DNA from: Verrucomicrobiaceae bacterium
Lineage (GTDB): Bacteria; Verrucomicrobiota; Verrucomicrobiia; Verrucomicrobiales; Verrucomicrobiaceae
Direction: 5' to 3'
Length of the DNA: 64,000 nucleotides
NCBI GenBank assembly: GCA_027487315.1
Contig: JAIYDW010000094.1
Location: forward strand, 1 to 64,000
Below, one piece after another: positions 596-25,839 of the stretch (position 1 is the first letter of the stretch; each line of letters starts with the position of its first letter). The notes below the pieces were generated by a model, which saw nothing but the letters and a program-made list of their open reading frames with translations, searched no databases and was not told the origin of the DNA. Both the position numbers and the translations under genes were made by a program.

Positions 596-613
596 TGTGA
601 CGTATTTGTCACA
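596..613. promoter_or_regulatory. 18-bp palindromic putative operator TGTGAC-GTATTT-GTCACA
   Basis: Perfect 6-bp arms, 6-bp spacer, 53 bp upstream of the ORF starting at 667; same motif at 18987, 25109, 25292 and degenerate at 14609. Confidence 0.55.
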
Positions 614-666
614 GTCGGCCATTTGCCCGTCGTTGAGGCTTTGCCAAGCTCACATGGGCTTTACTC

Positions 667-1458
667 ATGGCTTTTTACACCTCCAATTTCCTCTTGCTGT
701 GGCTATCGTTCACAGCCACGTCGGCATTCTCCCAGCTCCCAGCTGGAGAGACCCAGGGCAATGCTGCCTCAATTCAATCCAGTCGCGACACTCTCGCTCA
801 GTGGATCGAAACGCAGCGCATCATTTCCAGTGAAGAATCTTCCTGGCAAACCACCAAACTCGCTCTCGAAGGCAGAGTCGCCCTCGTCCAGCAGGAATTG
901 GATGACCTCAACAATAAGGTCTCTCAATCCAACAAGACCATCGCCGAGGAAGAAACACGCAAATCCAACCTCCAACGCGAACTCGACGCCGCCAAATCAT
1001 CCACTCAGTCTCTAATCGAAGCTGCCGGCCTAATGGAGGCTGAAATCATGAAGCTCAAAACCATCCTGCCAGACCCCATCCTCAAGAAGGTCCAAGCTCT
1101 CTACGAACGTATCCCGGAAGATCCCAACAGCACCAAAGTCTCACTCGCCGAGCGCTACCAAAACATCCTCGGCATTCTCAACGAGGCTGACAAAGCCAAC
1201 AACGAACTCATGGTCCTCTCCGAAGTTCGGGAAATTGCCGGTGCTTCTCCCACCGAGGTCGAGACCATCTATGTCGGCCTCGCTCAGGCTTATTTTGTCA
1301 ACGCTGACCGAAACTTCGCAGGCACAGGTCGCCCCGTAAACGGCAAATGGCAGTGGGAACGACTCGACGAAATCAGCACCGATGTCGCCGAAATGCTCAG
1401 CGTTATCAGCGCGAAAGGAAAACCTAAGTTCGTGCACCTGCCCATTCAGATTGACTAA
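667..1458 (+). CDS. DUF3450-like periplasmic coiled-coil protein of a TonB/ExbB operon
   Basis: 263-aa ORF with N-terminal signal, long coiled coil and C-terminal region resembling DUF3450; directly upstream of exbB-like gene. Confidence 0.75.
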   Translation: MAFYTSNFLLLWLSFTATSAFSQLPAGETQGNAASIQSSRDTLAQWIETQRIISSEESSWQTTKLALEGRVALVQQELDDLNNKVSQSNKTIAEEETRKSNLQRELDAAKSSTQSLIEAAGLMEAEIMKLKTILPDPILKKVQALYERIPEDPNSTKVSLAERYQNILGILNEADKANNELMVLSEVREIAGASPTEVETIYVGLAQAYFVNADRNFAGTGRPVNGKWQWERLDEISTDVAEMLSVISAKGKPKFVHLPIQID

Positions 1459-1462
1459 TTCG

Positions 1463-3115
1463 ATGAACCGAAATCCTCTCCTTCAACTCAGCCTGTTCGC
1501 AGCCTCACTCGTCGCAGTGACGCTGTCAACGCACTCCCATGCGCAGGCACCCGCAGCAGTCACCCCGCCACCCGCTGCCCAGACCTCCAAACTCCAATCA
1601 GCCGTCCAGGCGTCCCAGGACCGCCTCGAAAAAGCCAAACAAGAGTTGGCTGCCCTGCGCTCCAAAATCGAAGCCGATACCCTCCCCCTCGCCAACAAGC
1701 TCCAAGAAGTGGAGCAGAAACTCGGCACCACCCGCAACGATGTCCAAGGCGTCGACCGCGTGCTCTCCGGCAAACAACTCGAAAACACCAACCTCCAGTC
1801 CTCTGTCAAACTCAAAACCGAAGAAAACGCCTACCTCGCCAGCATCATGGACGAATTCGTCCGGGGCTTCGAAACGCGTTTGTTCAGCGGCGAACTGCCC
1901 CGCTACAAACCCATTCTCGAAGAAGCCAAATTGGTCATGACCAACCAGGAAATGAGTTCCAACGACAAATTCGCCCGTCAAATCGCCGCAGTCAAAGCCG
2001 CACTCGCCCGCCTTCAAGACATCGTCGGTGGCTCACGCTTCCCCGGCAAGGCTGTCGACTCCAAAGGCAACCTCATCGACGGCACCTTCGTCCTAGTCGG
2101 ACCCGCCAGCTACTTCGCCGCGAAGTTTGGCGACGTTTTCGGCTTGGCCATCCCCCAGCTTTCCTCGCCAAATCCCATCGTCCGAGCCTTCCCTGACCCA
2201 GGCTCCATCGGCGAACCCCATGAAAAAGTCATGCACTGGTTCGAGTCCAAATTCGGTTCCCACCAAGAGGAATCCCGCGCCGGCCTCAAAGAGGTCGTCG
2301 CTGCCACCCCAGGTTGGCTTCCAATCGACCCTTCAAAAGGCGCTGCTCTCAGGGACATGGTCGAAAAATTCAACATCATCGAGACCTTTATCCATGGTGG
2401 CTGGATCATGTGGCCCATCCTCGCTTCCTCCATCGCTGCCTTCACCGTCGTCCTCGAACGCGTCTTCTTCATCTTCAACGAGTCGCGCAAACGCAGCAGC
2501 AAGAAACTCGAGAAATTCTTCGCTCTCTGTGAAGCCAACGACATGGACGGTGCCGTGGCCGTCAGCAAAACGACCAAAGATTTCGTCGTGCGCGCCCTTG
2601 GCTACGCCCTCGAACACCGCGATACCTCCCTCCACAGCGCTCTGATCTATTCCTCCCAAACCGCGACCAAACGCTTCAATCGCGGTCTCGTCGTCCTGGA
2701 TACCGTCATCACCCTGGCCCCCATGCTCGGCCTCCTCGGAACCGTCACCGGGATGATGGGTTCATTCCAATCCATCAGTGGTGACAATGGCAACCCCACC
2801 GCCGTCATGGGCGGGATTTCCGAAGCTTTGATCGCCACCGCCGCCGGTCTCGGCATCGCGCTGATCTGTCTCCTCCCCTACAACTACCTCAACGCCAAAA
2901 TCGAAGAGGCCCAGAAAGACCTCGAAACAGCCACTGCTCGTCTCGAATTGCTCGTCCAAGTGTCCGAACAGGTCCGAAGACTGAAGGAAGCCCCACCCCC
3001 ATCAGGCGGTTCCACACCCCCTTCCCCCAGCCACTCCCATTCCCCTTCGGCCTCCACTGTGCCCAACGCCTCTCCAGACAAAGATCCCCCTCTCGGCCAG
3101 CCTTTGCCAGCCTGA
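1463..3115 (+). CDS. MotA/TolQ/ExbB proton-channel family protein with N-terminal periplasmic coiled coil
   Basis: MNRNPLLQLSLFAASLVAVTLSTHSHAQ signal, coiled coil, then GGWIMWPILASSIAAFTVVLERVFFI and LDTVITLAPMLGLLGTVTGMMGSF typical of ExbB/TolQ. Start moved from ORF-track 1382 to 1463. Confidence 0.9.
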   Translation: MNRNPLLQLSLFAASLVAVTLSTHSHAQAPAAVTPPPAAQTSKLQSAVQASQDRLEKAKQELAALRSKIEADTLPLANKLQEVEQKLGTTRNDVQGVDRVLSGKQLENTNLQSSVKLKTEENAYLASIMDEFVRGFETRLFSGELPRYKPILEEAKLVMTNQEMSSNDKFARQIAAVKAALARLQDIVGGSRFPGKAVDSKGNLIDGTFVLVGPASYFAAKFGDVFGLAIPQLSSPNPIVRAFPDPGSIGEPHEKVMHWFESKFGSHQEESRAGLKEVVAATPGWLPIDPSKGAALRDMVEKFNIIETFIHGGWIMWPILASSIAAFTVVLERVFFIFNESRKRSSKKLEKFFALCEANDMDGAVAVSKTTKDFVVRALGYALEHRDTSLHSALIYSSQTATKRFNRGLVVLDTVITLAPMLGLLGTVTGMMGSFQSISGDNGNPTAVMGGISEALIATAAGLGIALICLLPYNYLNAKIEEAQKDLETATARLELLVQVSEQVRRLKEAPPPSGGSTPPSPSHSHSPSASTVPNASPDKDPPLGQPLPA

Positions 3116-3168: not shown

Positions 3169-3585
3169 ATGGCAGGCGGCGGCGGCGGCAGAACAGCAGG
3201 CGGCAGGAAAAAGGCCAACATCCAGATCGTTCCTCTGATCGATGTGGTCTTCTTCCTGTTGGCCACCTTCATCATGTACACTTTGTCCATGTCCAAAAAC
3301 ATGGGCGTCAACGTCCAACTCCCAGGTTCCAGCACCTCTTCCAAACAAGCCAGTACCGAGGATGCCCTGACCATTTCCGTCCTGAAAAAAGGCGAGCTCT
3401 TTTTCAACAAGGACAAAATCACTATCCAACAGCTCCCCTTCCGCCTCCAGTCCTTCAAGGCCCAACACAAAGAACCCAAAGTCATCGTCAATTCGGATGA
3501 AGACGCCGAAATGCGCAATGTCATCAATGTCATCGATGAAGTCAAAGCGGCTGGCATCATGAAAGTCGGGTTCGCTACCAAATAG
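3169..3585 (+). CDS. ExbD/TolR family biopolymer transport protein
   Basis: 138 aa; NIQIVPLIDVVFFLLATFIMYTLS is the ExbD transmembrane/Asp signature. Confidence 0.92.
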   Translation: MAGGGGGRTAGGRKKANIQIVPLIDVVFFLLATFIMYTLSMSKNMGVNVQLPGSSTSSKQASTEDALTISVLKKGELFFNKDKITIQQLPFRLQSFKAQHKEPKVIVNSDEDAEMRNVINVIDEVKAAGIMKVGFATK

Positions 3586-3591
3586 ACCCCT

Positions 3592-4275
3592 ATGTTAAAG
3601 GCTCTTTTCTGGTTCTTCATCGCTCTGCTCGTACACGCAGCCTTCCTGCTCTTCGGCAAGGCTCTGCTTCCCCATAGCGAAAAACACGAGGAATTGAAAG
3701 TCACCGAGGTCGACCTCAGCGAAAACGTCAAAGAAGAAGACAAAGTCGAAGAAAAAGAGAAAGTGGACGAGCAAGTCGAGGCGCCTCCCGAACAAATGGT
3801 CGATGCCAAAATGTTCGAAGAACCCGCCAGCGCACCCGAAGCGCCTGCCGCCCTCTCCGCCATGAGCCTTTCCGACCTCGCTGGTGCCATGAGTGGTGCC
3901 ATGAGTGATTTCGGCGGCGCAGGCGGCATTACCTCCGGCGGTGTCATCGGCGGCACCGGCACCGGCACCCTCGGCAGCGCCATGGGCGCAGGCGCCATGG
4001 ATAGCATGGATGTCGACGAACGCCCCCGCGCCATGGGAGCTCCCAATATCAAGCTGCCCAGGGAATTGAAGGGCGCCTCCGGCAAAGTCATCGTCCGTTT
4101 GGTCGTCGACGAAAAAGGCAAGATCCAAAAACCCCAAGTCGAAACCTCCACCAACTCTGCCCTCAACCAAGCCGTCTTGGATGGCATCCTCTCCATGCGC
4201 TTCGAACCCGCCACTCGTGGCGGCAAGAAGGTCTCCTGCAAAGTGCGCCTTCCTATCGTCATCGGTGCCGCCTAG
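3592..4275 (+). CDS. TonB family protein
   Basis: N-terminal TM, acidic/Ala-Pro-rich linker, C-terminal GKVIVRLVVDEKGKIQKPQVETSTNSALNQAVLDGILSMRFEPATRGGKKVSCKVRLPI. Confidence 0.9.
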   Translation: MLKALFWFFIALLVHAAFLLFGKALLPHSEKHEELKVTEVDLSENVKEEDKVEEKEKVDEQVEAPPEQMVDAKMFEEPASAPEAPAALSAMSLSDLAGAMSGAMSDFGGAGGITSGGVIGGTGTGTLGSAMGAGAMDSMDVDERPRAMGAPNIKLPRELKGASGKVIVRLVVDEKGKIQKPQVETSTNSALNQAVLDGILSMRFEPATRGGKKVSCKVRLPIVIGAA

Positions 4276-4296: not shown

Positions 4297-5712
4297 ATGC
4301 TACGCTCTACTCCCTTTCTGATCGCTCTCGTTGGCGCCTCCCTGACCTCCATGTCAGCCGCTGATCAGCGCGCTTTCTACCCCGCCAATTACTTCAAATC
4401 CAAAGAGTTTCGGGACGCTTTCCTCGGCACTCTCGGTGTCAAAACCGATGTCGAACCCAAAATCAGCGATGAGGAGCAAAACTACCTCTCCCAAATCGAA
4501 CCCTTCCTTTCGGAAGATGCCGACGCCTGCATCCGCGCCTACCAAAAGCTAGTCACACCGGAAAGCACCGCTCGCTTCGAATACGAACTCGGTGTGATCT
4601 ATCTCCAAAAAGGCCAAATCGAAGAAGCCCGCGACTGGATGCTCAAGGCTGTCACCAAATTCGACAACTTCCTCCGCGCCCACACCAACCTGGGCATGCT
4701 CTACACCCGCCTCAACAAAACCCAGGAGGCCATCCCCCACATCACCAAGGCACTCGCCCTCGGCCAAACCAACGAGCAACTCTTCGGCATGCTCGCCTAC
4801 TGCCACCTCCAAAATGGCGATGCCCTCAGCGCTGAGTCCGCTTACCGCAACGCCATCATGCTCGGGCCTAAAACGCTCGACTGGAAAACAGGCCTCGCCC
4901 AGGCTCTTTTCGCCCAGCAAAAGGCCACCGAGGCCATCGCCCTCCTCGATGAATTGCTCAAACAGCAACCCGAGAAAGAGCTCTTCTGGTCCATGCAGGC
5001 CCTCGCCTACCTCGCCAATCAGCAACCCATGAAGGCTGCCCAAAATCTCGAGACTCTCGCGATGATGGACGCCGCCACCGCCAAGGACTACTCCACCTTG
5101 GCAGACATCTACCTCTCCGAATCCATTTACCCTCTCGCAGGCCAGGCCTACATCAGTTCCCTGACCGCCAAAAACGCCCCAGCCACCGCCGAAGCACCTC
5201 TCCGCTCGGCCGAAATGCTCGCCCAGCGAGCCGCCTACCCCCAGGCCCAGCAACTCCTCGACGCCATCGAAAAACATTTCACCGAGATGCCCCAAGGGGA
5301 TCACCTCAAGGCCCTCAAAATCCGCAGCCGCATCGCCACCGCCCTGGAGGCGACTGACCAGGCCGTCACCATCCTCAAAGAGGTCATCAAAACCGATCCG
5401 CTCGATGGCGAAGCCCTCCTCCTCCTCGCCAACCACTACCAATCCGAAGGTTCCCCTGAGGACCTCGTCCAATCGGTCTTCTACCTCGAGCGCGCCATCA
5501 AAGTCCCCTCCGTCGAAGCCGAGGCCGGCGTCCGCCTCGCCCAAGCCCTCGTCGTCAAATCCTCCACCGACCTCGACAAAGCCAAGAAAATCGAATCCCT
5601 CCAACGCGCCGTCGACCTCCTCAAACGCTCCCAAGACCTCAAAAAGCGCGAAAGCGTCGGCAAATACCTAGCCGACCTCGAAAAAGCCCTCCAAAAAACC
5701 AAGGGACTCTAA
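4297..5712 (+). CDS. Secreted tetratricopeptide repeat protein, last gene of the TonB-type operon
   Basis: 471 aa with signal peptide and multiple TPR motifs (FLRAHTNLGMLYTRLNKTQEAIPHITKALALG). Confidence 0.85.
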   Translation: MLRSTPFLIALVGASLTSMSAADQRAFYPANYFKSKEFRDAFLGTLGVKTDVEPKISDEEQNYLSQIEPFLSEDADACIRAYQKLVTPESTARFEYELGVIYLQKGQIEEARDWMLKAVTKFDNFLRAHTNLGMLYTRLNKTQEAIPHITKALALGQTNEQLFGMLAYCHLQNGDALSAESAYRNAIMLGPKTLDWKTGLAQALFAQQKATEAIALLDELLKQQPEKELFWSMQALAYLANQQPMKAAQNLETLAMMDAATAKDYSTLADIYLSESIYPLAGQAYISSLTAKNAPATAEAPLRSAEMLAQRAAYPQAQQLLDAIEKHFTEMPQGDHLKALKIRSRIATALEATDQAVTILKEVIKTDPLDGEALLLLANHYQSEGSPEDLVQSVFYLERAIKVPSVEAEAGVRLAQALVVKSSTDLDKAKKIESLQRAVDLLKRSQDLKKRESVGKYLADLEKALQKTKGL

Positions 5713-6063: not shown

Positions 6064-9000
6064 CTACCACTTCCCGGTAATGCTCACACTGTAAATCGTT
6101 CCCGCCTGCGTCACCGCAAAGGGCACCCCACTGGCAAACTCCCGCCTCCTCGGCTCATCCAGCAAGTTGCTCACCCGCACTCCAATCTCCCAGTTCTCAA
6201 AGACTTTCTTGGAAAGATAAGCGTCCACCGAGGTAAACGGCAGTTGGAAAATATCAGGAATCGTCTGCGCATTGACCCGCCCGCCCCCCGCATACAGAAG
6301 ACTCCCCGTCACGTTTAGCAAAATCCCAGCACTGGTGCCCAAGTCCTTATTGTCATAGGTGACACTAGCATTGAAAGTGTATTCAGGCTGTCCTTGCAGC
6401 GGCCGGTCTGTCGACAATCCAGCTTCCCGCCTCAACTGCTCGTTGAACGGGATCAGATCAACCTTGGAGGCAACATAGCCATAGTTCATGCCAAACGTCC
6501 AGTCACTCAAGACCGGAACAATCTCTCCGAGGTTTTTGAACGTCTCCACTTCAAAGCCAAACAAAGACGCCCCCACCTCATTCCGTGCCGTGTTGAACAA
6601 ACCCAAGTTCACCTGCTCGATGGGGTTCGCTATCGTCTTCGCAAAGAGATTCGCCGCCACCAAATCCCCACCTCCCAGATTCCATTCCCATCTTACATCG
6701 TAGTTGACCACATCTGACATGTTCAGAAGCACGTTCCCGATGAAAATGTCGCCGCTAGAGGGCTCGCGGGAAAACACTGGCGCAATCTCCTTGAAGTTCG
6801 GCCGGGCGACCGTTCGGGTGATGGCAGTTCGCAGGTACATGTCGTCTGCTAGAGTCCATTTGACTCCCAGCGCCGGCAGCAAGTCCGTCCTCACAATGGA
6901 AGGATTGGCAAGTTGTTCAGGAGGGTAAGGCTCTCCAGTGATCGGATCATTCAAAAGCAAAAGCCCAGCCCCTTGGCTCGGATCTAGCAAGTTGATTCCC
7001 GGAACGGCAAATCGAATATCCGTGTGCTCCACTCGCCCCCCAGCAACCACTTCCAAATCATCAGACAAATTAAACACCGCCGCCGCATGCGCTGCAGGAA
7101 TCGTTTGTGAAGCCGTATACTCTTCCCTGACAGGCAGTACCCGGCCCCGCGTCAAAAAGATGTTGTCAATTCTCAAGAATCGATCCGGTAACGCCGGAAA
7201 CGGCGGCGAGGGTGGCACTCCCGGCTGAAACACAGAGGTCTGATCAGAAAGATCCCCGCTCCCGATCTGATCCGCGATCGTGAGATTCTCCCTGTCATTT
7301 GGACTCACCCCCACCGGAGCTTGCAAAGACCCGGTCGAATTCAGCAAATACTCAAAGTTTTCGCTCAAATACTCACGATCTGTCCTGTCAAACGCCGCCC
7401 CAAACTTGATCTTCGTCCTATCTTCATCATCAGGCCCGCCTCCAATCGGCAGTTCCACATCTAACGCAAGGTAGTAGCTCTTATCATCGGAGCGTCGCCA
7501 GACCCTCTCATTGTCCGGAGGTGCCGGATCACCTGCGGCAATAACATTCCCCAAGTCGAAGTCATAAGCATTGAAGGTCTTCCTCAAATCCGGCTGGTCC
7601 TGGTAAGAAGTGCTAAAAGCCGCAACCCAGTTCGTCTTGATGTCGCCCAATTCGGGAAACCGATGCTCTCCCGCCAGTTGCCAGGTTTGCAAATACCGCT
7701 GCGTGTAGCCAAGTGCTTCCCGAAAGATGATCCGCTGCTCCTGTTGCACCGGGATTCCATTGTTCAGAGTGTTCAGGTTGTCATTTTCGCCCAACGCAAA
7801 TACCGCCTCATCCTCCGCGGCAAGATTGGTGAAATAGGTCAAACCGATAGTGTCGTCATCCCATTCAATCGAGGCACTGATCAAACCACCCGCCAAAAGC
7901 CCCTCCTGTCCCCGGCTGTAATCCTCAAAATAAGTCGACCCAATCGACAAGTCCACCGGACTCACCTGCGCCCGGCCTCTCGTTCCTTCCTCCAGGGTAT
8001 ACCGCTTCGCATACGTGATGCCGCCCACAATCCCTAACTCACCTCCAAGAAAATCGGGCACCCGGGTCCCTCCCAGCGCAGTCACCGAAAAATTCTCCGG
8101 TGCCTTCCTCGTCGTAACCCCTGTACCCCGGCCAAACAACAACTCGGCGGCCCTCAGACGATTCCCAGACGAAACCCGGTTCACGTCATCCTGTGGGTTC
8201 ACCGATGGGTCGGTGTAGGAGAAGGTGCTGGGATCAAATGGAAGATCGGCTGCGTCAAATTGCTTCAGCTCATTTGGCAAACTCCTCTCCCTGGATGTTC
8301 CCAGCATCCCTGTTCCAGCTCCACGATACGAAAGAAATTTTTCGCTCCCCGTGGTTCGCGTATTGAAAGCATTGGAGACTGAAAAATTGAAAAATGGCTC
8401 ATCAGGTAGCCTTTTGGTGACCACATTTAACGAGCCCCCCGTCGCCTCCCCAGGCATCCACGGCACAAATGTCTTCGAACTCACCAGCGTCTCCACCAGT
8501 CCAGTCGGGAAAATGTCGATGTTCACCGCCCGACGGTCGGGGTCAGAACTCGGAATCCGCGCCCCGTTCAGTAGCACCACATTATACCGGTCACTCAACC
8601 CCCGCACCACCACATACCGACTGTCCACCACCGCCGTGCTCGTCAATCGTTTCGCCGCCGATCCAATATCTCCCCCCGATCCTGATGCCTTTAACAAACT
8701 CGGCGCCACCGCCTGGGCAAACGACTGCACCGGCGCCCCAATCTCAACCGGCCCCACCGTCAACTCTTCCTCCTCGATCGTCGACACCACAAACTCATCC
8801 AACTCCACCACCTCCGCCGTCAATTGAATCTCCGTCTCTTGCACGGCACCAGCAGACACGACCACACCCGATACCGCTCCCCGAATGTACCCCTCCTTAG
8901 AGGCAACAATCCGGTAAACTCCAGCCTCCAACTCATTCGCAAAGAACCGCCCCTCCGAATCGGTCACCAGCGCCTTCCCCCCGGGCTCCAACGCTACCGA

Positions 9001-9171
9001 CGCTCCAGACACCGGAACAAAGAAATCCGCGTCCTTCACCATTCCGCGAATCCCCCCCTGCTGCGCACAAACATCCGTCGCCATCCAGGCAAAGGCCAGC
9101 ACTGCCCATCGCAGGCACCAAATGGCTCCCCGTTTCAAACTTGTCTTTTCGCTGTCTCTCATTCCACTCAT
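6064..9171 (-). CDS. TonB-dependent receptor with N-terminal carboxypeptidase-regulatory-like domain
   Basis: 1035 aa; GGIRGMVKDADFFVPVSGASVALEPGGKALVTDSEGRF, plug (SSKTFVPWMPGEATGGSLNVVTKRLPDEPFFNFSVSNAFN) and beta-barrel ending in an aromatic-containing strand. Confidence 0.92.
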   Translation of the reverse strand: MSGMRDSEKTSLKRGAIWCLRWAVLAFAWMATDVCAQQGGIRGMVKDADFFVPVSGASVALEPGGKALVTDSEGRFFANELEAGVYRIVASKEGYIRGAVSGVVVSAGAVQETEIQLTAEVVELDEFVVSTIEEEELTVGPVEIGAPVQSFAQAVAPSLLKASGSGGDIGSAAKRLTSTAVVDSRYVVVRGLSDRYNVVLLNGARIPSSDPDRRAVNIDIFPTGLVETLVSSKTFVPWMPGEATGGSLNVVTKRLPDEPFFNFSVSNAFNTRTTGSEKFLSYRGAGTGMLGTSRERSLPNELKQFDAADLPFDPSTFSYTDPSVNPQDDVNRVSSGNRLRAAELLFGRGTGVTTRKAPENFSVTALGGTRVPDFLGGELGIVGGITYAKRYTLEEGTRGRAQVSPVDLSIGSTYFEDYSRGQEGLLAGGLISASIEWDDDTIGLTYFTNLAAEDEAVFALGENDNLNTLNNGIPVQQEQRIIFREALGYTQRYLQTWQLAGEHRFPELGDIKTNWVAAFSTSYQDQPDLRKTFNAYDFDLGNVIAAGDPAPPDNERVWRRSDDKSYYLALDVELPIGGGPDDEDRTKIKFGAAFDRTDREYLSENFEYLLNSTGSLQAPVGVSPNDRENLTIADQIGSGDLSDQTSVFQPGVPPSPPFPALPDRFLRIDNIFLTRGRVLPVREEYTASQTIPAAHAAAVFNLSDDLEVVAGGRVEHTDIRFAVPGINLLDPSQGAGLLLLNDPITGEPYPPEQLANPSIVRTDLLPALGVKWTLADDMYLRTAITRTVARPNFKEIAPVFSREPSSGDIFIGNVLLNMSDVVNYDVRWEWNLGGGDLVAANLFAKTIANPIEQVNLGLFNTARNEVGASLFGFEVETFKNLGEIVPVLSDWTFGMNYGYVASKVDLIPFNEQLRREAGLSTDRPLQGQPEYTFNASVTYDNKDLGTSAGILLNVTGSLLYAGGGRVNAQTIPDIFQLPFTSVDAYLSKKVFENWEIGVRVSNLLDEPRRREFASGVPFAVTQAGTIYSVSITGKW

Positions 9172-10451
9172 TGCGCCACCCCGATAACCTCGCCCCGCAA
9201 TACCGCATTTAGCGCATCTTGCAATTCAGAACCCATCGGCCGCCCCAACCGCGCACGACACAGGCACACCTCCAAACACCCCCGATACTTCATCCGCGGA
9301 TTCGGATTCCCCGCCGCGATCCGCACCGCTTCCAAGAACAGTCTCTCCCCCTTGTCTTCCGCGCCCAGCATCATGAAGCAGGCACCCGTCCACGCCAACC
9401 CATCCGGCTGATCCATGGGCTGCTGTGACCTCGCAAGATCCTCCAGCTTTTCAAAATAACCCTCCAACGCCTTTTCTTTCCCTCGGATCTTCCAGATCTC
9501 AGCCATCTTGAAGTACCGCTCTCCCCCTCCTTCTAGATGAAAGCCCATCTGCCCAAACGCCTTTTCAAACGCTACCTTCGCTTCTGCCTCCCTCTTCTGC
9601 TCTGCGAAGTATTTGGCCAAGTCCAATAACACATCCGCATGGTACGCGTTCGACTTCTCCAACAAAACTCCTATTCCCTCGAAGATCGCCTTTTCCTCCT
9701 CTTCATTTCGTTTCCCCCCAACTCCACCTGTTACCACTTCGAGTAACTTTCCTGCAGCCTCCACCATTTCAGGCACTGGCACCTTCGGAGCTTCCGCAAA
9801 ACCATCAGACATGACCCGCTTCAATCCCTCCTTTGTAAACTCGGCACCCCGCCGAATGCGTTGCACATGCGCTAAAACCACCGCTGCCATACGATCTCCA
9901 ATCAATTCATAACCCGCCAACCAAGCCGCCATCTCACTGTCACTCATCCCAGCTAGCGCCCCCACACCCGCCAGCCGCACTCGTAATACGGTCCGCTGCC
10001 AATCCTTCCACTGTCCCAACTCTCTCCCAATTTTTTCCAATACCTCGCGCGCTTCCGGCGCATTCCCAAGGATCAGCTTCCTCTCCAGAACCATCAGCCT
10101 CCCAACCTCAGAACGATAATCCTTAATGGTGCCGGCCATTTCGTCGGCCGCACTGGTCTGCCCGTTCCCCAAAAGCACCTCCATATACCGCAACCTTAAC
10201 CGACTCTCCAAATCACGATCCCCACCAATCAATTCCAAAAAATATAACCCGCTTCCAACCGGGTCCTTGCCATCCACTACCCTTTCCTTCTCCCCTACCG
10301 CATTGCCTACTCGAATGCCATCCGCCACCTCTGCCGGCAATCCCTTCAAGTCCACTCCGCCCGCTATCTCCTGCCCCTCCACCTCCCAATCCACCGTTAG
10401 CATACAAAACAAGCCGACTGCGAGCCTCCTTGTGTTGAATCCAATACTCAT
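9168..10451 (-). CDS. TPR-like secreted protein translationally coupled to the TonB-dependent receptor
   Basis: 427 aa, signal-like N-terminus, helical repeats; 4-bp overlap with receptor start. Confidence 0.7.
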   Translation of the reverse strand: MSIGFNTRRLAVGLFCMLTVDWEVEGQEIAGGVDLKGLPAEVADGIRVGNAVGEKERVVDGKDPVGSGLYFLELIGGDRDLESRLRLRYMEVLLGNGQTSAADEMAGTIKDYRSEVGRLMVLERKLILGNAPEAREVLEKIGRELGQWKDWQRTVLRVRLAGVGALAGMSDSEMAAWLAGYELIGDRMAAVVLAHVQRIRRGAEFTKEGLKRVMSDGFAEAPKVPVPEMVEAAGKLLEVVTGGVGGKRNEEEEKAIFEGIGVLLEKSNAYHADVLLDLAKYFAEQKREAEAKVAFEKAFGQMGFHLEGGGERYFKMAEIWKIRGKEKALEGYFEKLEDLARSQQPMDQPDGLAWTGACFMMLGAEDKGERLFLEAVRIAAGNPNPRMKYRGCLEVCLCRARLGRPMGSELQDALNAVLRGEVIGVAQ

Positions 10452-10550: not shown

Positions 10551-12509
10551 TTACAGCGCAAACACGCGGTAAGTCACCGCTGCTCCAACCGTCGTCGTTG
10601 TGTCAGTCACCGACACTGCACCCGTCCCAGTCACAGGCGCTTTTTGCACCAGTGTCCAGACCTTGCCGTCTGTCGACTTCTCAACAACATAACGCAACCC
10701 GGTCACGGCGGTGAAGCCGATCGTTGGGTTCGTTCCTGACAAACCAATCGTCAAGAACGGACGGGCGACATTCGCTGTCTGCAAAACATTGAGTGACTCG
10801 AGTGTGCTCCAGCCCTTCATGTGGTTGTTGTCGCGCATCGCTCCGGCAAACGGCGCGTTGACCAACCCAGCAGGAGTCGCCACACCGTCATCAGTCCGGG
10901 CATTCGCAGCCGAGGCCAAGGTCGGATTGAACGCCTGGAAACGATACAACGGACAAACGTTCGCTGTCTCGAACCAAGGCGTGGCAATCTGCGAGGCCGT
11001 CTCTTCTGCAAGAGTCGTCAACTGACTCAGCACCGTTACGGTGTTTGAAGTCACTGTGCCTACCTCAGTCGCACCCGACACCGCTGGCGAGAAGGAATGC
11101 ACATTGCTCCAGGTCAACAAACTGGTGATGCTGCCCAGAGTTGCTGATTGGGTCGCCCGGCTAACACCGTTCGAACCAATGTTCTCCACCAATCCGTTGT
11201 AGAAGTCGCACTGCGCTTCAAGCCGAATCTGCAAGCCACGCTTTTGCGTGTCACCGGCAAGGAGCGTGCTGTTGTAGACTGCGAAGTCCGTTGCTGGCAA
11301 GCGATCAGCATCATTGCCCTCGCCACCATCCCACTCAAACAGGTTGTCATAGCGATAGTCCGTTCCAGTCTGAACCTGCCCAACACGAGTGTTGTTACCA
11401 GCCCAACCAGACCTCAAAGACGTGCTGGTTCCAACCGACGCGGTGTTCATCGTTCCTTGGATCGCCGTCCAGAACTGGTTCACACCACGATAACCTTCGT
11501 CACCGTCAAACGAATCATCCTGGTTCGCCGTCGAGAACAAATAGCGTGAGTTGTTCTTACCGCCAAACCACTCGAAGCCGTCATCCTGGTTTTGATAGGA
11601 CTCAATGTGCTCAAGCACCGTGCCCTGACCAACACCGCAAAGCGTCAACGAGTTGATTTCGTTGCCAACTGCGGGGTCACCGAGAACGAAACCGCCGTAG
11701 CGAATGACTACAAACCGCAGCACACCACTGCTGTCGTTGTCATTCAGACCACCGTAGCGCGAGCCGGACCCGTTATAGATCGGAACCGCGAGGTCGGTGG
11801 ACATCCCTTCTGGATAATCCGCACCAATGTTTGAATTCTGCGTAGGAGATGTGTCAGAGAAGTTCGTGTTGTGAAGATCCCAAATCCCGTCCGCAGGAGT
11901 GGTATCGACGCTTCCCGTCCCTTGGGCTACATAGCCCCGTCCGCAAACGACCACTCCACCCCAAAGTCCGGCCTTGGAGAAACCATTGTTTCCCTCAGGA
12001 CCGTCTGCAAAGTAGTTGGAATTCGCCAATTGAGGCACGCCAGCCGACAAAATAGTCGTTGCCGTTCCCCCGACGCTTGTAAACGTCGTTGGAACCGTAG
12101 CGTACCCGCCAGAAACGTTCGGATCGTCGATCGAGGTGAAGACGATCGGAGCATCTGCCGTTCCGTTCGCGATGATTTTACCGCCACGGGAAACCAACAA
12201 AGCGCCCGGCTCCGCCGTGATTCCACTCAGAGTGGTAGTCACACCACGAATGATGGTTCCAGGTTCGATCGTCAGCGTTGCACCATTGGAGACTTGGATC
12301 AAACGACGCAGCAAATACACATTGTCGCGAGTCCACCGTTGATCGGTAGTGATAAGGTTCCCATCGGTGATCGCCGCATTCGTGGAGTTCGCCGTCTGGT
12401 TGGTGCCGTTGGTCGTGCCAACGTTGACGAAGGCCGCCTGCGCGGTCCCCGCCCCAGCACCGGCCAGAGCCAGCAGCATGAGTAGTTTTTGAGATAAAGT
12501 TGTTTTCAT
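10551..12509 (-). CDS. Secreted protein, probable right-handed beta-helix type
   Basis: 652 aa with signal peptide; GATLTIEPGTIIRGVTTT..PGALLVSRGGKIIANGTADAPIVFTS repeat pattern typical of beta-helix secreted proteins found near TonB receptors. Confidence 0.7.
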   Translation of the reverse strand: MKTTLSQKLLMLLALAGAGAGTAQAAFVNVGTTNGTNQTANSTNAAITDGNLITTDQRWTRDNVYLLRRLIQVSNGATLTIEPGTIIRGVTTTLSGITAEPGALLVSRGGKIIANGTADAPIVFTSIDDPNVSGGYATVPTTFTSVGGTATTILSAGVPQLANSNYFADGPEGNNGFSKAGLWGGVVVCGRGYVAQGTGSVDTTPADGIWDLHNTNFSDTSPTQNSNIGADYPEGMSTDLAVPIYNGSGSRYGGLNDNDSSGVLRFVVIRYGGFVLGDPAVGNEINSLTLCGVGQGTVLEHIESYQNQDDGFEWFGGKNNSRYLFSTANQDDSFDGDEGYRGVNQFWTAIQGTMNTASVGTSTSLRSGWAGNNTRVGQVQTGTDYRYDNLFEWDGGEGNDADRLPATDFAVYNSTLLAGDTQKRGLQIRLEAQCDFYNGLVENIGSNGVSRATQSATLGSITSLLTWSNVHSFSPAVSGATEVGTVTSNTVTVLSQLTTLAEETASQIATPWFETANVCPLYRFQAFNPTLASAANARTDDGVATPAGLVNAPFAGAMRDNNHMKGWSTLESLNVLQTANVARPFLTIGLSGTNPTIGFTAVTGLRYVVEKSTDGKVWTLVQKAPVTGTGAVSVTDTTTTVGAAVTYRVFAL

Positions 12510-14608: not shown

Positions 14609-14626
14609 GGTGACAATTTCGTCAAG
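14609..14626. promoter_or_regulatory. Degenerate copy of the 18-bp operator (GGTGAC-AATTTC-GTCAAG)
   Basis: Same 6-6-6 spacing and AT-rich spacer as at 596, 59 bp upstream of the ORF at 14686. Confidence 0.35.
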
Positions 14627-14685
14627 TACACGCCGTTGCTAAGCCCCAGGCTTCGTGAATCAATCGCCTCTCATTCTCTCTCCAC

Positions 14686-15207
14686 ATGCGCACCACATTG
14701 CTACCCACCCTGGCCCTATCCTTGACACTCCTCACCCAGTGCACAACACTCCCTCAATCAACGCTCTTTGAAGCTCATCCCAGCTTGGTTAAAGACAAAT
14801 CACAACCTTCAGACGCTCCCGTCACCTCGAAGACCTACAAGCTTCCATCAGACTGGAATGGAGACGGCTGGGTCATCAAACGCGGCGCGGAAATCCGCTT
14901 CAATGCCGATGGCACCGGCGAATTCTCCTGCGTCACCTACGCCCATTCCGAACTCGCCCTTCCCAACGCCGTCCAGTTCCAAGCCCTCCAATACGGCCCT
15001 GATGGCAACCTCCTCTTCGGGGTTCCTTCTAGTGATGTCGGTGAATCCCTTCACCTCCGCTCAGCCATGCGCGACTACCCCTACCGCATGCCCTTTGGCT
15101 TCAACAAAGCCTACTTCAAAGACCTGACCACCGTCCGCTTCATGGGCAGACTCCTCAAACCCATGGTCCCTCCCCTCCCCGCCCCCCCACCCATGTCGTC
15201 CAAATAG
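14686..15207 (+). CDS. Putative lipoprotein
   Basis: 173 aa; MRTTLLPTLALSLTLLTQC lipobox-like N-terminus. Confidence 0.65.
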   Translation: MRTTLLPTLALSLTLLTQCTTLPQSTLFEAHPSLVKDKSQPSDAPVTSKTYKLPSDWNGDGWVIKRGAEIRFNADGTGEFSCVTYAHSELALPNAVQFQALQYGPDGNLLFGVPSSDVGESLHLRSAMRDYPYRMPFGFNKAYFKDLTTVRFMGRLLKPMVPPLPAPPPMSSK

Positions 15208-18913: not shown

Positions 18914-18986
18914 TTTAGCCGCTGAACGGCTTGATTGAATAGGCGGTTCTGTTAACTTCGCAAGTCCCGGTTCGAAAAGAGTTCGC

Positions 18987-19004
18987 TGTGAACATTTTGT
19001 CACA
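18987..19004. promoter_or_regulatory. 18-bp putative operator TGTGAA-CATTTT-GTCACA
   Basis: One mismatch from the palindrome at 596, same spacing; lies between divergent genes 18913(-) and 19084(+). Confidence 0.5.
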
Positions 19005-19083: not shown

Positions 19084-20832
19084 GTGCCACGTCCCAGCTC
19101 CATTCTTACCCCCCCATTTGCCCCGTCCTTCTTGGGGATTCTCCAATTCCTCGTCGTTTCGGCGACCCTCTGCCCAACCAACTTACCACTGCCAGCTTTC
19201 GCACAAACACCCGCTCCACCAGTCCAGCTACCCCTCCCTGACGCTCCAGGCCTTCCTCCAGGCCTCGATAACTCGCCCAACCCCCTTCTCGACTTCAAAA
19301 GCCGCGATGCCGCCAAGCGGGCCCAAAAAAGCGACTCCGATGACGCCAACCTCCAACCCCTTTCCCCCTTCATGCCAGGCGAACAACCGCCACCGCTTCC
19401 CCAAGAACCTCCCACCGCTCCACTCACCCCCACTCAGAAGGAACTCATGGCGCTCGCTCAAAAAGTCGCCGGCTCCGTCATCAGCCTCCGCGTTTGGGAT
19501 GAATTCGGTGGCCTTCTTACCTCCGGCGTCGGTTGTTTCGTCTCCAATGACGGCCTCATCCTAACCGACGCCAATCTGCTTCACCCCGAAATTGCGGATC
19601 GTATCGACTACATCACCACCACTGCTGCAAACGGAACCAACCACCGCGTCACCGGATTCTACCTCGCCGACCTCACTTCTGGAGTCGCCCTCCTTCAAAG
19701 CGATGGTCCCCCAGCCGCCGCGCTCGAACTCAAAACAGAGGTCGACTTCAGCAAGCCTCTTCCATGCCGGGTAGTCGCCTTGTCAGACAAACGTGGCCTC
19801 CTCATCGCCGACGCCGAAGTCTCACTCGATGACACTCTCGCGGGCCAGGGCTGGCTCACCCTTCGTGGAGACGACTCCCCCGGCGGTGTTGGCTCTCCAG
19901 TCCTTTCATCAAATGGCTCTGTCATCGGCATCGTCGCCATGAAGACGCCCCTCGATAGTTGGATGAATTTTGCTCTACCCGCCAGCCAAGCCGCTTTCGA
20001 AACCCAACGCAAACGCCCCAAACTCAAACTCTTATCCGAACTTCCTCAATCCCCTAAGGTCAATGATGTCGTCAACGACCCTGACTTCACCACCGCCTTC
20101 ACTTTGCTGGCTGAAAACAACCCCACTCGCGCCGCGCGCATCCTCCTCAAACTCACCAAACGCTACCCCCGCAGTGCCGAGTGCTGGGCACTTCTCGGCC
20201 TCGCCTCATCCTCCCTCGGAGCCAATCCAGACGCTCTCTCCTGCCAACGCCGCTCCGTCGCCCTCGACCCCGCTTCGGGCCTCTATTGGCACCAAATGGC
20301 CCAGGGCCAAAACCGCGCCAAAAGCGCCGACAAGGGCGCCATCACCCTCGATCAGGAGGAATATCAAGCCCTCGTTCAAGCCACTTACCTCGACCCCACC
20401 GACCGCGTCAGTTGGCTCCTCCTCGGCACCCAACACCTCAAAGCCGGTCGACTCCAGGAAGCCGATGAAGCCCTCGAACGCCTGACGTTCCTTGCCCCCT
20501 CCTACTCTCAAGGCTTTTACCTGTCAGCCGTCGCCAAGTCCCGACTCGCTGATTACCCCGCAGCCCTCTCCGCCCTGGATCGTTGCCTGCAAATCAACAG
20601 CCGCCTCGACAATGCCTGGTTCTTCCTCGGTCTCATCCACGACAAAACCGGCGACTATTCCAAGGCTGCCCTCGCCTTTCAAAAGGCGGTTCGCGTCAAC
20701 CCAGACCACCCCAATGCCTGGCTTAACCTCGCCCATGCCCTCCGCAAAGCCAAACGCCCAACCGAAGCCAGCCAAGCCTTCCGCGAACATCAAAAACGCA
20801 CCGACCAACGCCGCCGCAAACAACAACCGTAA
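19084..20832 (+). CDS. Trypsin/HtrA-like fold protein fused to TPR repeats, catalytic residues apparently lost
   Basis: 582 aa; VSNDGLILTDANLL, DLTSGVALLQ, GGVGSPVLSSNGSVIGIV correspond to HtrA motifs; C-terminal TPRs (AWFFLGLIHDKTGDYSKAALAFQKAVRVNPDHPNAWLNLAHAL). Confidence 0.75.
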   Translation: MPRPSSILTPPFAPSFLGILQFLVVSATLCPTNLPLPAFAQTPAPPVQLPLPDAPGLPPGLDNSPNPLLDFKSRDAAKRAQKSDSDDANLQPLSPFMPGEQPPPLPQEPPTAPLTPTQKELMALAQKVAGSVISLRVWDEFGGLLTSGVGCFVSNDGLILTDANLLHPEIADRIDYITTTAANGTNHRVTGFYLADLTSGVALLQSDGPPAAALELKTEVDFSKPLPCRVVALSDKRGLLIADAEVSLDDTLAGQGWLTLRGDDSPGGVGSPVLSSNGSVIGIVAMKTPLDSWMNFALPASQAAFETQRKRPKLKLLSELPQSPKVNDVVNDPDFTTAFTLLAENNPTRAARILLKLTKRYPRSAECWALLGLASSSLGANPDALSCQRRSVALDPASGLYWHQMAQGQNRAKSADKGAITLDQEEYQALVQATYLDPTDRVSWLLLGTQHLKAGRLQEADEALERLTFLAPSYSQGFYLSAVAKSRLADYPAALSALDRCLQINSRLDNAWFFLGLIHDKTGDYSKAALAFQKAVRVNPDHPNAWLNLAHALRKAKRPTEASQAFREHQKRTDQRRRKQQP

Positions 20833-21381: not shown

Positions 21382-24300
21382 TTAAGGCACCACTGGCACT
21401 GGCTGAACCACCACTTTCCCACCCTCCTGCGGGCTATTCGAAGTCGTCTGCCCCACCACAGTAGGCAGTTGGTTCAAGATGAAATATCCCTCGCCCTTGT
21501 TCTTCACGATCAAGCCTTGATAAGTCACCGCCCGTGTGACGGTCGCGGTCGGCACCAGGGGATTCGGTTCAACAAGGGTGAACTTCCCACTGAAGGCTCC
21601 CGTACTGCTGACAAACGATAGGGTCACCTTGCGGGTGTTCGGGATGCCGGGATTGAAGGTCACTTTGTTGCTGGTCGACACGTTCGCCTTCACCACCGGC
21701 ATCGCTGGCAGCGCCGTCACAACCCCAGCTTCCGTCAGCAGCACCTCGATTTCATTGGCCGCATCACTCAACCCCAAGACCCGGGGATTCGCTGTTGGAT
21801 TCGCCGTCGTGGGCTTGGCGGGAGCCACGTACCGCGCCCCGTTCACGCTCGCTGAAAGCACGGCTGGGAAACCACTCCGGTAGAGGCGATTGCTCGTCGC
21901 CGAGTTCGCCGGCCTCGACCATGTCAGACCCACTGCGGACACCGTGTTATCTGCTGGCGTGAGCCCAGTCGTGATATCCAACGTCCCCAAAATGGATCCC
22001 ATCACGGGTAGCTTCGTCCCATACAGGGTTCGGAACAAAAGCATTTGCCCGGTCGGTCCCGCAAAGCTCGACGTCGAAATCGACGACCCGTCTGATAGCC
22101 TACCCGCAATCGTCAACCGACCCGTGGTGGCACTCACATTGAACGAAAGGAATCCCGTGCCCTTCGGCGCTTCGGCACTCGTCAAGGCCGTGTTGTCAAG
22201 CGTCACGTGGTTGGTGTACAAGCCCGCAATCGCATCCGCGCGATTCGAGCTGGACCATGGATTTCTCCACGCATCGAAAGTCGCCGTTGCGACCCCATCC
22301 GAGACCGTTCCCGTTCCGTTCTCCACCGTCCCAGTCAGCCCTTCAATCGTGAAGGCCACTAGCAAGTCGGAGAATCCCTTCCTTTTGATCGGGTTCGCCA
22401 CCACCCGCAATTGGGTCAGTTCTGTCGGATCGACAACGCCAACCCCGGTGAAAGAATACACCTTGGTCCCTAAAGTCACCTTACCGCTGGTGACTCCCCC
22501 AGTCGAGGACACAGTGAAATCCACCCGTCCACCCAGCGCCCCGCTTCCAGGCGACGCATCAACCAGGATCCCGGGAGTACGCGCAATCGGTCCCGCAAAA
22601 ACTCCAGCCGTACCGGTCGGCAATCCTGTGATCAAAAGACGCGTCGTCAACACGGCCGACCCAAACGAATTCTTCGCGGTCACCTTCACCGCATACGGTG
22701 TCGACTTAAACACCGTCGGTGTCCCCTCAACAACCCCCGTGGTAGGGTTCACTCTAACTCCGGTTGGCAAGCCCGTTGCCGAAAAACTGGTCGCCGAACG
22801 GAAGATATTGTTCGCCGGCTCATCTGGCGCCAACGCCGGCTTGAACGAATACACCCTCCGCACCTGGCCCGCTGTCAAATCGCCGGTATGCGCCCAAACA
22901 GGCTTCTGATTCGGTGGCCCTGCTTGCACACTGGTCGTCACGGCCGTGGTCGAACTGTTGTTGCTGTCGGACAACTCCACAACGGTGTTGTCTGGATCCG
23001 CCACCGCCCCTCCGATCGGCAGGACATAACTCCCCGCCGTTGAAGTCTTCACCGTCACCGTGAGCGGAACCGAACTGCTGGCCGCAACACTCCCACCCGA
23101 AAAGGTCACCACCCCAGCCGCTTGACCAACAGTGAAGCCGCTTCCCGACGCTCCAACATAAGTCAGCCCACTGGGCAACGTCACTCGAACACCCACTCCG
23201 CTTGCCGGAAGCAGTCCCGTGTTCTGAACCGTCACGCTGTAATTGAACTCAGCCTCAAGAAACGCCGACGTTGGACCCGTCACGGACGTCACCAAATCCG
23301 GGTTCGATACTGTCACCACCGCCGTGGCACTGTCGGTAGGCCCCGCTAAGTTGGTCGCTCTCACCCAAAAGCTTGTGCTCGTTGCAAGGTTGGGCGTTGT
23401 GAACGTGGCATTCGTCTCGCCTGCCAACGGGGTGCTCGTATCGCCAGACGCACCCTGATACCATTGCAGCGTCGGAGTCGGCGTCCCAGTGACCGCCACA
23501 CTCAGTGAGGTGCTTGTCCCCACGGCAATCGTCGTCGAATCCGGCTGATCCGTGAAACTCGGAAGCACCGGTGGCACCACCGTAAAGTTAAACACGTAAT
23601 TGCTCGCCATGTTGGCGGGCACAATGTCAGTCACCCCGCTGGCGAGCACGGTCACCACATACTCAGCCCCATATTGCAAGGGAGCGGAAGGCGTTAGAAG
23701 AACGGTCGTCGAATTGGTGACCGGCAGACCCGTAAAAGCCACCGGATTCCCCCCCGTCGTGATCGTGATCGCATTGCTCGTAAGCGAGACTTCCTTGCTG
23801 AACGTGATGCCAATCAAAGCGTTGATCGCAACCCCAGTAGCATCGTCGGCCGGCGAAGACGCAGCCACAAAAGGAAGATTCGTCGCCGTCAAAGTGATCG
23901 TCTCAGTGTCATCGAACCCGCCCACATTCGATACCCGTGCCCAGTAACTCGCAGTCGTGTTCACGGCCCCCAAAACCAAATTCGTCCCAGTCTCTCCCGA
24001 CAAGGGATTCGCCGTGTCGCCCGTGTTACCCGTATACCATTGCACCGTAGGCGTCGGCGTCCCCGAAGCAGTCACCGTCAAAGTCACAGGGCTCCCCGTC
24101 GTCACGTTCTGCGAGGGCGATTCCGAGGTAATCACAGGTGGAATCGCCGCTTCTGTCGTGAACGAAAAGGTGAAATTCTCAGCCATGTTATTGCTGCTCC
24201 CATCCGTCACGCCCGTTGCCAATACAGTGACCGTATGCAGCGTCCCATAGGCCAACGGTGCGGTCGGCGTCAGCACAACCGAACTCACGTTCGTAGCCGG

Positions 24301-25029
24301 CAATCCCGAAACCGCCACAGGGTTCCCACCCGCACTCACCGTGATCGCACCACCGGTGAGATTCACTGGTCCACTGAAATTTACAGTAACATTTGATGAC
24401 ACCAAAACCGCAGACGCTGAATTGGACGGTGTGGTTGAGATCACTGTCGGTGTCGCAATAGTCGACGCCAAGCGGTGTGGCACTGTGACGGGGTCCGCTG
24501 ATGCTGTCCCAACCAACGCGTTCATTCCATTTGCGGAATCCAACCCAAACCCAAAAAAACTGTCTTGGATCAGGTCTTGATTATCGGCCCACGTGAATCC
24601 GAAGGTTGCGGCTTCAAAAACACCATGCTGAGTCGCCAGGCTTAAATTACTGTTGTCCAAAACCCATGCATAAATCGCCCCACCCGCGATATCGCCTGGG
24701 ACGTTTTCATTGTTCGTTGAAAGATCGTAAGGCAGCGTCGAAGTTCCGTTTCCTGCGGTCCTCGTCCCAGTAGTCGAATAGTTCAGTGTCGAAGCGAAGG
24801 AACTTCCGGAGAGTGTGAAAGTGCCGATCTCGAAAAACAGATCGTCAAGTTCATCCACGGACAGGGAAAAATTCGTCCCAGGTGGGAAGTAGCCGAAACG
24901 GACGATACCACTAGTCAGGGGAGAGCCATCTGACCTGGCCATGTTGTTATCGCTGTCAAAGTTGAGGACAGCCGCATTGGATACCGATGCTAGAGCAAAT
25001 ATGAAGACTGCGAAGAGGGATCTAAACAT
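21382..25029 (-). CDS. Large secreted protein with multiple bacterial Ig-like / CARDB-like domains
   Basis: 1215 aa; signal peptide; repeated SSVVLTPTAPLAYGTLHTVTVLATGVTDGSSNNMAENFTFSFT modules; N-terminal ~190 aa homologous to the PEP-CTERM protein at 12556-13215. Confidence 0.8.
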   Translation of the reverse strand: MFRSLFAVFIFALASVSNAAVLNFDSDNNMARSDGSPLTSGIVRFGYFPPGTNFSLSVDELDDLFFEIGTFTLSGSSFASTLNYSTTGTRTAGNGTSTLPYDLSTNNENVPGDIAGGAIYAWVLDNSNLSLATQHGVFEAATFGFTWADNQDLIQDSFFGFGLDSANGMNALVGTASADPVTVPHRLASTIATPTVISTTPSNSASAVLVSSNVTVNFSGPVNLTGGAITVSAGGNPVAVSGLPATNVSSVVLTPTAPLAYGTLHTVTVLATGVTDGSSNNMAENFTFSFTTEAAIPPVITSESPSQNVTTGSPVTLTVTASGTPTPTVQWYTGNTGDTANPLSGETGTNLVLGAVNTTASYWARVSNVGGFDDTETITLTATNLPFVAASSPADDATGVAINALIGITFSKEVSLTSNAITITTGGNPVAFTGLPVTNSTTVLLTPSAPLQYGAEYVVTVLASGVTDIVPANMASNYVFNFTVVPPVLPSFTDQPDSTTIAVGTSTSLSVAVTGTPTPTLQWYQGASGDTSTPLAGETNATFTTPNLATSTSFWVRATNLAGPTDSATAVVTVSNPDLVTSVTGPTSAFLEAEFNYSVTVQNTGLLPASGVGVRVTLPSGLTYVGASGSGFTVGQAAGVVTFSGGSVAASSSVPLTVTVKTSTAGSYVLPIGGAVADPDNTVVELSDSNNSSTTAVTTSVQAGPPNQKPVWAHTGDLTAGQVRRVYSFKPALAPDEPANNIFRSATSFSATGLPTGVRVNPTTGVVEGTPTVFKSTPYAVKVTAKNSFGSAVLTTRLLITGLPTGTAGVFAGPIARTPGILVDASPGSGALGGRVDFTVSSTGGVTSGKVTLGTKVYSFTGVGVVDPTELTQLRVVANPIKRKGFSDLLVAFTIEGLTGTVENGTGTVSDGVATATFDAWRNPWSSSNRADAIAGLYTNHVTLDNTALTSAEAPKGTGFLSFNVSATTGRLTIAGRLSDGSSISTSSFAGPTGQMLLFRTLYGTKLPVMGSILGTLDITTGLTPADNTVSAVGLTWSRPANSATSNRLYRSGFPAVLSASVNGARYVAPAKPTTANPTANPRVLGLSDAANEIEVLLTEAGVVTALPAMPVVKANVSTSNKVTFNPGIPNTRKVTLSFVSSTGAFSGKFTLVEPNPLVPTATVTRAVTYQGLIVKNKGEGYFILNQLPTVVGQTTSNSPQEGGKVVVQPVPVVP

Positions 25030-25108: not shown

Positions 25109-25126
25109 TGTTAGGATTTCGTCACA
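25109..25126. promoter_or_regulatory. 18-bp putative operator TGTTAG-GATTTC-GTCACA
   Basis: One conserved half-site, same spacing, 80 bp upstream of the gene ending at 25029. Confidence 0.4.
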
Positions 25127-25291: not shown

Positions 25292-25309
25292 TGTGACCTT
25301 TTTGTCACA
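25292..25309. promoter_or_regulatory. 18-bp palindromic putative operator TGTGAC-CTTTTT-GTCACA
   Basis: Perfect arms, same spacing as at 596. Confidence 0.55.
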
Positions 25310-25440: not shown

Positions 25441-25839
25441 ATGTTCCTCGCTCTCTCAGAAACGCCCTATTCTAGTCTACTCAGCACCGTTGGAGTTTCA
25501 GCCATTCTTGCCACAGCGCTAGCCTGCTGGGCCTTCATCATGGCCCGCAATCCAACCCGCTGGCGCCGTTGGTGGATGACCCAGTTCGGCATGGCTGACC
25601 TCAACAGCAGCCGCGAAATGCGGCGAAAACAGGAACAATTCCTGGCCATCGGTTCTTCGATCATCTGTCTCCTAGCGTTTGCGCTCAGCCTGTCCTGCAC
25701 CGTCTGGACCAAGCTCACCATCGATGACATCCGGTCCAAAGCGACCGCCAGCACGCAGTCTTCCTCCAAATCCCGAAACGTGGCCATCGCAAGGCCCCAG
25801 CCAGCCATTAGGAAGCCCGGAGCCACTTTTATTCCGTAG
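25441..25839 (+). CDS. Small membrane protein of unknown function
   Basis: ~132 aa with two hydrophobic segments (LSTVGVSAILATALACWAFIMA; FLAIGSSIICLLAFALSLSCTVW). Confidence 0.55.
   Translation: MFLALSETPYSSLLSTVGVSAILATALACWAFIMARNPTRWRRWWMTQFGMADLNSSREMRRKQEQFLAIGSSIICLLAFALSLSCTVWTKLTIDDIRSKATASTQSSSKSRNVAIARPQPAIRKPGATFIP

Follow-up and report, generated by a model that had tools for sequence, protein, structure and literature searches.

A probable Pho-type palindromic operator conserved upstream of envelope and phosphate-starvation genes in a Verrucomicrobiaceae bacterium

The 18-bp palindrome TGTGAC-N6-GTCACA, which recurs in the 64,000-nucleotide stretch of Verrucomicrobiaceae DNA analysed here (the window), is very probably a conserved Pho-regulon operator of this lineage and, judging from sequence comparisons, would most likely be read by PhoB. 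The assignment follows from the genes that carry it: since the motif lies before phoB, pst, agt-plcP-phoU and btaA-like genes, the regulon is taken to be the Pho regulon and PhoB its likely reader. As phosphate-starvation genes of related genomes carry the same site, the outer-membrane genes of the window are likely to be on at phosphate shortage. In the literature searched, no Pho operator of Verrucomicrobiota had been described before, so that the phosphate-starvation regulon of this phylum, which is widespread and hard to grow, apparently has an operator not known until now. With the operator known, sequence suffices to find phosphate-regulated genes.

Operator sites in the window

All five palindromes named in the preliminary description were recovered at their positions on the + strand, with no mismatch at 596..613 (TGTGACGTATTTGTCACA) and 25292..25309 (TGTGACCTTTTTGTCACA), one at 18987..19004 (TGTGAACATTTTGTCACA), two at 25109..25126 (TGTTAGGATTTCGTCACA), and three at 14609..14626 (GGTGACAATTTCGTCAAG); their placement upstream of genes was likewise correct. 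The + strand carries the T-rich spacer in all five sites, and each therefore points at a + strand gene, i.e., the DUF3450 operon (596), a lipoprotein gene (14609), an HtrA-TPR gene (18987), and a membrane protein gene at 25.44 kb that is addressed by both 25109 and 25292. A loose search with up to three mismatches was at chance level in the window (24 found, 20.8 expected from shuffled sequence). The strict search exceeded chance: the arms TGTGA...TCACA occurred three times, in every case at a spacing of 8 and at none of the other spacings between 0 and 19. Within the 5.87-Mb genome, nine places matched with at most one mismatch, three of them inside the window, which makes up about 1% of the genome.

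We scored the window independently using a matrix trained on promoters of relatives only, from which the TonB site of this genus was left out. Its five best-scoring places were 596, 25292, 18987, 25109, and 14609, and nine strand-wise scores of ≥ 14 compared with a mean of 0.5 in simulated sequence. Single simulated windows attained scores of 15.2 and 20.4, so that the score by itself makes a weak case for 14609 and 25109. Two more weak operator-like sites on the same contig (window 14427-14444 and G000:C51:68937-68954; scores 14.0 and 14.6) were excluded from the members. The genome-wide scan consisted of pattern searches; pattern TGTGACRNNTTYGTCACM with two mismatches gave 27 strand-wise matches compared to nine for the control, mostly within genes and with few new targets. 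The site in C106, which falls within a kinase gene, was judged to be background, as were those in C205 and C11 (ahead of a gene with a glutamine amidotransferase domain).

The site at 596 lies upstream of an operon on the + strand, which comprises genes for a DUF3450 protein (667..1458; PF11932, E 1.2e-26), an ExbB/TolQ-type proton channel protein (1454..3115; PF01618, E 7.8e-29), an ORF at the ExbD position (3169..3585; placed by its location between exbB and tonB), a TonB-type protein (3592..4275; PF03544, E 3.5e-10), and, as the last gene, a TPR protein (4297..5712; PF13432 and others). A probable −35 element, TTGCCC (623..628, +), starts at site position 28, 10 bp past the operator core. 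A TonB-dependent receptor with a CarboxypepD_reg domain is encoded on the − strand (6064..9171; PF00593, PF13620); no operator of its own was found in the window, and the receptor gene adjoins the operon in the related genome G012 (L093) too. Beside it are two secreted proteins without Pfam families (window 9168-10451 and 10551-12509), and the 427-aa one of the two has an apparent counterpart next to the receptor in G012 (L093:100-1218), as judged by eye.

The weaker site at 14609 precedes the gene of a small lipoprotein-like protein without a Pfam family (14686..15207, +), with TTGCTA at 14636, again site position 28. The site at 18987 is located between a beta-barrel gene pair (−) and the gene of a secreted trypsin-like (HtrA-like) protease with TPR repeats (19084..20832, +; PF13365 and TPR). 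Further downstream, the weaker site at 25109 lies between the gene of an Ig-like protein (−, 21382-25029) and that of a small membrane protein without a Pfam family (25441..25839, +), and 25292 is also upstream of the latter. The term "envelope genes" used in the preliminary description is fair for these targets, but an envelope regulon found no support; the common theme is phosphate.

Conservation and link to phosphate-starvation genes

The preliminary description had proposed a regulon operator and had named missing conservation at orthologous promoters as grounds for rejecting it. The sites are conserved there, and the proposal is borne out by this conservation together with the enrichment described below. 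Upstream of orthologues of the DUF3450-ExbB-TonB operon, the operator is kept at protein identities of 23-98%. Relatives of the DUF3450 gene occur in 20 of the 56 related genomes; two congeners (97-98% protein identity) have kept the exact 596 site, and nine more genomes (23-55% identity) have a site of this type in the same place with one or two mismatches (relatives carrying the TonB-operon site: L011-L015, L017-L020, L023, and L029). The HtrA-TPR operator was found upstream of all ten orthologues (35-96% protein identity), nine of them outside the genus, and reads TGTGAAGAATTCGTCACA or nearly so amid diverged flanks in most of the distant ones. The lipoprotein operator has the counterpart TGTGACACTTCCTTCACA upstream of a 39%-identical gene in G012 (L136). 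Among three congeners, the 25292 site sits within a fully invariant island, and the 25109 site has one arm base altered in one of them. In alignments, orthologous operators are conserved where the flanking DNA has diverged. A second conserved block, AAANNAGTTC, lies a few bases upstream of the palindrome in HtrA-TPR promoters (window 18970-18986); the remaining Pho promoters lack this block, which may represent an additional site.

The HtrA-TPR gene was found only in genomes with the TonB operon (11/11, P about 1e-6, uncorrected for kinship). In G012, a stretch of about 21 kb holds the TonB operon, the HtrA gene, and phoBR, and the same is true of G028, where the HtrA-TPR orthologue is directly upstream of phoB (L033). 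The gene divergent from phoB in G012 encodes a choice-of-anchor I protein; an operator-like site separates the two genes (L093:10822-10839), which makes the protein a candidate for a secreted enzyme under Pho control.

The genome under study encodes a PhoR-PhoB pair, PhoU, and Pst. PhoU scores above the curated cut-off of TIGR02135, and TIGR02154 is the best NCBIfam model for PhoB, although PhoB and PhoR score under the equivalog cut-offs of their own models. Two further strong sites occupy the gap between phoB-phoR and a divergent operon encoding a GT4 glycosyltransferase, a PlcP-like phosphoesterase, and PhoU, and another stands 47 bp ahead of a gene of the DUF3419 (BtaA) family, with a methyltransferase gene next in line. 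Other bacteria remodel their lipids under phosphorus starvation by means of Agt, PlcP, and BtaA (PMC4796936). No strong site was found upstream of the genome's own pstS, which is preceded by a Porin_O_P-type gene; a two-mismatch copy lies between pstS and pstC (L090:5091-5108, G000:C20) and is kept in both congeners.

We identified PhoB in 52 of the 56 relatives. Most phoB promoters within the same family carry the motif in one or two copies; it is present, often in duplicate, at phoB promoters of genomes with 50-99% PhoB identity. Perfect copies precede PstS-type genes in many relatives, while some have no site upstream of theirs. For a comparative count, we took 330 bp upstream of TonB-operon, phoB, and PstS-type genes (77 upstream regions, 25.4 kb in total). 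This DNA held 51 matches with at most one mismatch compared to four in 257 kb elsewhere, an enrichment of about 130-fold, and the reversed control gave none. Across 144 genomes of the order, the exact palindrome occurred at about 137 places and the control at 19 (summed over the genomes), ten of the latter in one genome. The reversed control ACACTG-N6-CAGTGT has ten copies in G044 and almost none elsewhere, which suggests a repeat family there. A scan of named genomes by PhoB alignment covered mostly other phyla and only one Verrucomicrobiales record; upstream scores exceeded 12 in only four of 80 phoB-like loci, including that record.

Operator geometry and its reader

Aligned in gene orientation, 54 nonredundant sites yielded the consensus T-G-T-G-A-C-R-N-W-T-T-Y-G-T-C-A-C-M, in which the GTNAC half-sites are centred at positions 4 and 15, i.e., 11 bp apart. 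The cores occur essentially at a spacing of 6 alone (GTGAC-N6-GTCAC, 50 versus 1). The motif has a direction: its gene-side arm (GTCAC) and T-rich spacer are better conserved than its outer arm. A TTG starts exactly at position 28, 10 bp past the core, in 27 of the 54 sites (0.7 expected), and an A-rich block follows near positions 52-55, as expected of a −35/−10 pair. The operator therefore lies upstream of the −35 element, where it is the only strong conserved element in these promoters. Within the window, this spacing is seen at 596 and 14609. At 18987 the TTG comes four bases later, and 25109 and 25292 lack one.

The PhoB of this genome, encoded at L091:8426-9115, is 41% identical to that of E. 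coli. Residues R193, T194, D196, H198, R201, R203, T217, R219, and Y223, which contact DNA in the PhoB-DNA structure, are unchanged, and the recognition helix differs by V197 to T and R200 to K. The resulting helix, RTLDTHxKRxR, is constant in every relative with a parsed PhoB. We infer that PhoB binds the operator, and it may do so in an inverted geometry.

The geometry allows a different reading. Pho boxes have been described as direct repeats bound head-to-tail (PMC4415409, PMC10294691), with a repeat length of 11 bp (PMC4415409). GTNAC is self-complementary, so a tandem Pho box would differ from a palindrome only at the middle base. The motif could thus be an ordinary direct-repeat box, TGTGAC-N5-TGTCAC, bound head-to-tail by PhoB and only seemingly palindromic owing to a degraded left half-site. 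This reading, which concerns geometry alone and is compatible with PhoB as the reader, is a serious possibility, if somewhat short of an even chance: the 11-bp distance of the half-site centres, the better conserved gene side, and the retained E. coli contact residues are all consistent with it. However, the two geometries differ at one base, and in counts that did not select on it, 50 of 58 left arms have G and 50 of 50 right arms have C, which favours a true inverted repeat. Complementarity extends to positions 7 (A or G) and 12 (C or T), the tandem arrangement GTCAC-N6-GTCAC occurs three times in the 77 upstream regions compared to 50 for the inverted one, and the canonical TGTCA-N6-TGTCA does not occur in them. 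Since canonical direct repeats were looked for and did not prevail, we do not file the operator as a canonical Pho box; it appears to be an inverted variant that would work like one. In the canonical box, the −35 element is replaced by the box itself, whereas half of the sites here retain a TTG downstream. With the E. coli Pho box (CTGTCAT repeats) the operator shares its position before phoB and pst genes, the half-site spacing, the gene-side GTCAC, and a likely PhoB reader with the same contact residues. Unlike that box, it has inverted arms, a T-rich spacer on the coding strand, and a −35 TTG downstream, and its presumed reader carries the two substitutions in the recognition helix.

Another dimeric factor, of the CRP/FNR family or similar, could read the palindrome and co-control Pho genes, with PhoB acting at other places in the same promoters. 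CRP-like dimers typically bind sites with two-fold symmetry, the five-base arms are identical to those of the CRP site TGTGA-N6-TCACA, and two weak HTH_Crp_2 matches in the genome narrowly pass the cut-off (29.7 and 29.6 bits). However, the half-sites are 2 bp farther apart here (spacing 8, not 6), and CRP-spaced sites are lacking both in the 77 upstream regions and in the window, in agreement with the earlier view that this is no plain CRP box. Neither HTH_Crp_2 match is on a contig with a strong site, no second PhoB site is apparent upstream of the −35 element, and the targets are exactly the core Pho genes, a phosphate and not a carbon regulon. We consider such a factor improbable, and the CRP/FNR-like regulator suggested in the preliminary description found no support; that phoB, pst, agt-plcP-phoU, and btaA-like genes have this motif as their operator points to PhoB and phosphate starvation. 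Even less credible, and in our estimate highly improbable, are chance palindromes, RNA hairpins, or terminators. The chance-level count at three mismatches and the position of most weak genome-wide matches within genes would suit them; the enrichment of strict sites, the TTG fixed at 10 bp in half of the cases, the conservation across diverged flanks, and the excess of exact copies in the order argue against them. On enrichment, conservation, and promoter spacing, we rejected this explanation for the strong sites, with 14609 and 25109 resting on weaker scores.

Proposed model and related systems

With PhoB as the reader, scarce phosphate would lead a PhoR-like kinase to phosphorylate the PhoB-like response regulator, and a PhoB dimer would bind TGTGAC-R-N-W-T-T-Y-GTCACM and activate sigma-70-type transcription, the −35 TTG starting 10 bp downstream of the GTCAC core. 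In the window, phosphate starvation is predicted to switch on the TonB energising operon, the HtrA-like protease, the lipoprotein, and the small membrane protein. Together, these probably act in importing a phosphorus compound across the outer membrane. On sequence grounds, we read the leftmost 26 kb of the window as a likely phosphate-starvation outer-membrane island, which assigns a condition, phosphate shortage, to an otherwise functionless TonB/DUF3450/HtrA island. Tentatively, and at just under an even chance, we propose that PhoB of Verrucomicrobiales switched from tandem sites to an inverted repeat while keeping the 11-bp spacing, with V197T and R200K fixed in its recognition helix, that it activates upstream of an intact −35 element, and that the operator also controls this island with its dedicated TonB system and HtrA-like protease. 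The inverted geometry, if true, would provide a clean natural test of DNA-geometry switching in the tandem-binding PhoB family.

Other known systems share parts of this arrangement. The PhoP box of Streptomyces coelicolor (GTTCACC direct repeats) is likewise a Pho-regulon operator with a CAC-containing half-site, and GTTCACC is the gene-side arm in some relatives here; its repeats are direct, whereas ours are inverted. A literature search on TonB/ExbB under phosphate limitation yielded nothing direct. In the TonB2-type system of Vibrio vulnificus, reportedly one of iron transport, additional DUF3450-type proteins likewise accompany ExbB-like and TonB proteins, whereas the operator here indicates phosphate control. 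Marine PlcP/Agt lipid-remodelling clusters with Pho boxes (PMC4796936) resemble the agt-like and plcP-like genes under a Pho-type operator, and the btaA-like gene here has its own site. Unlike in those clusters, the pair is divergent from phoBR, phoU lies downstream, and the motif is inverted.

Regarding the window as a whole, its + strand is strongly C-rich (24204 C versus 13283 G), a large skew for a 64-kb chromosomal stretch, and positions 38605-46356 form one ORF of 2583 codons.
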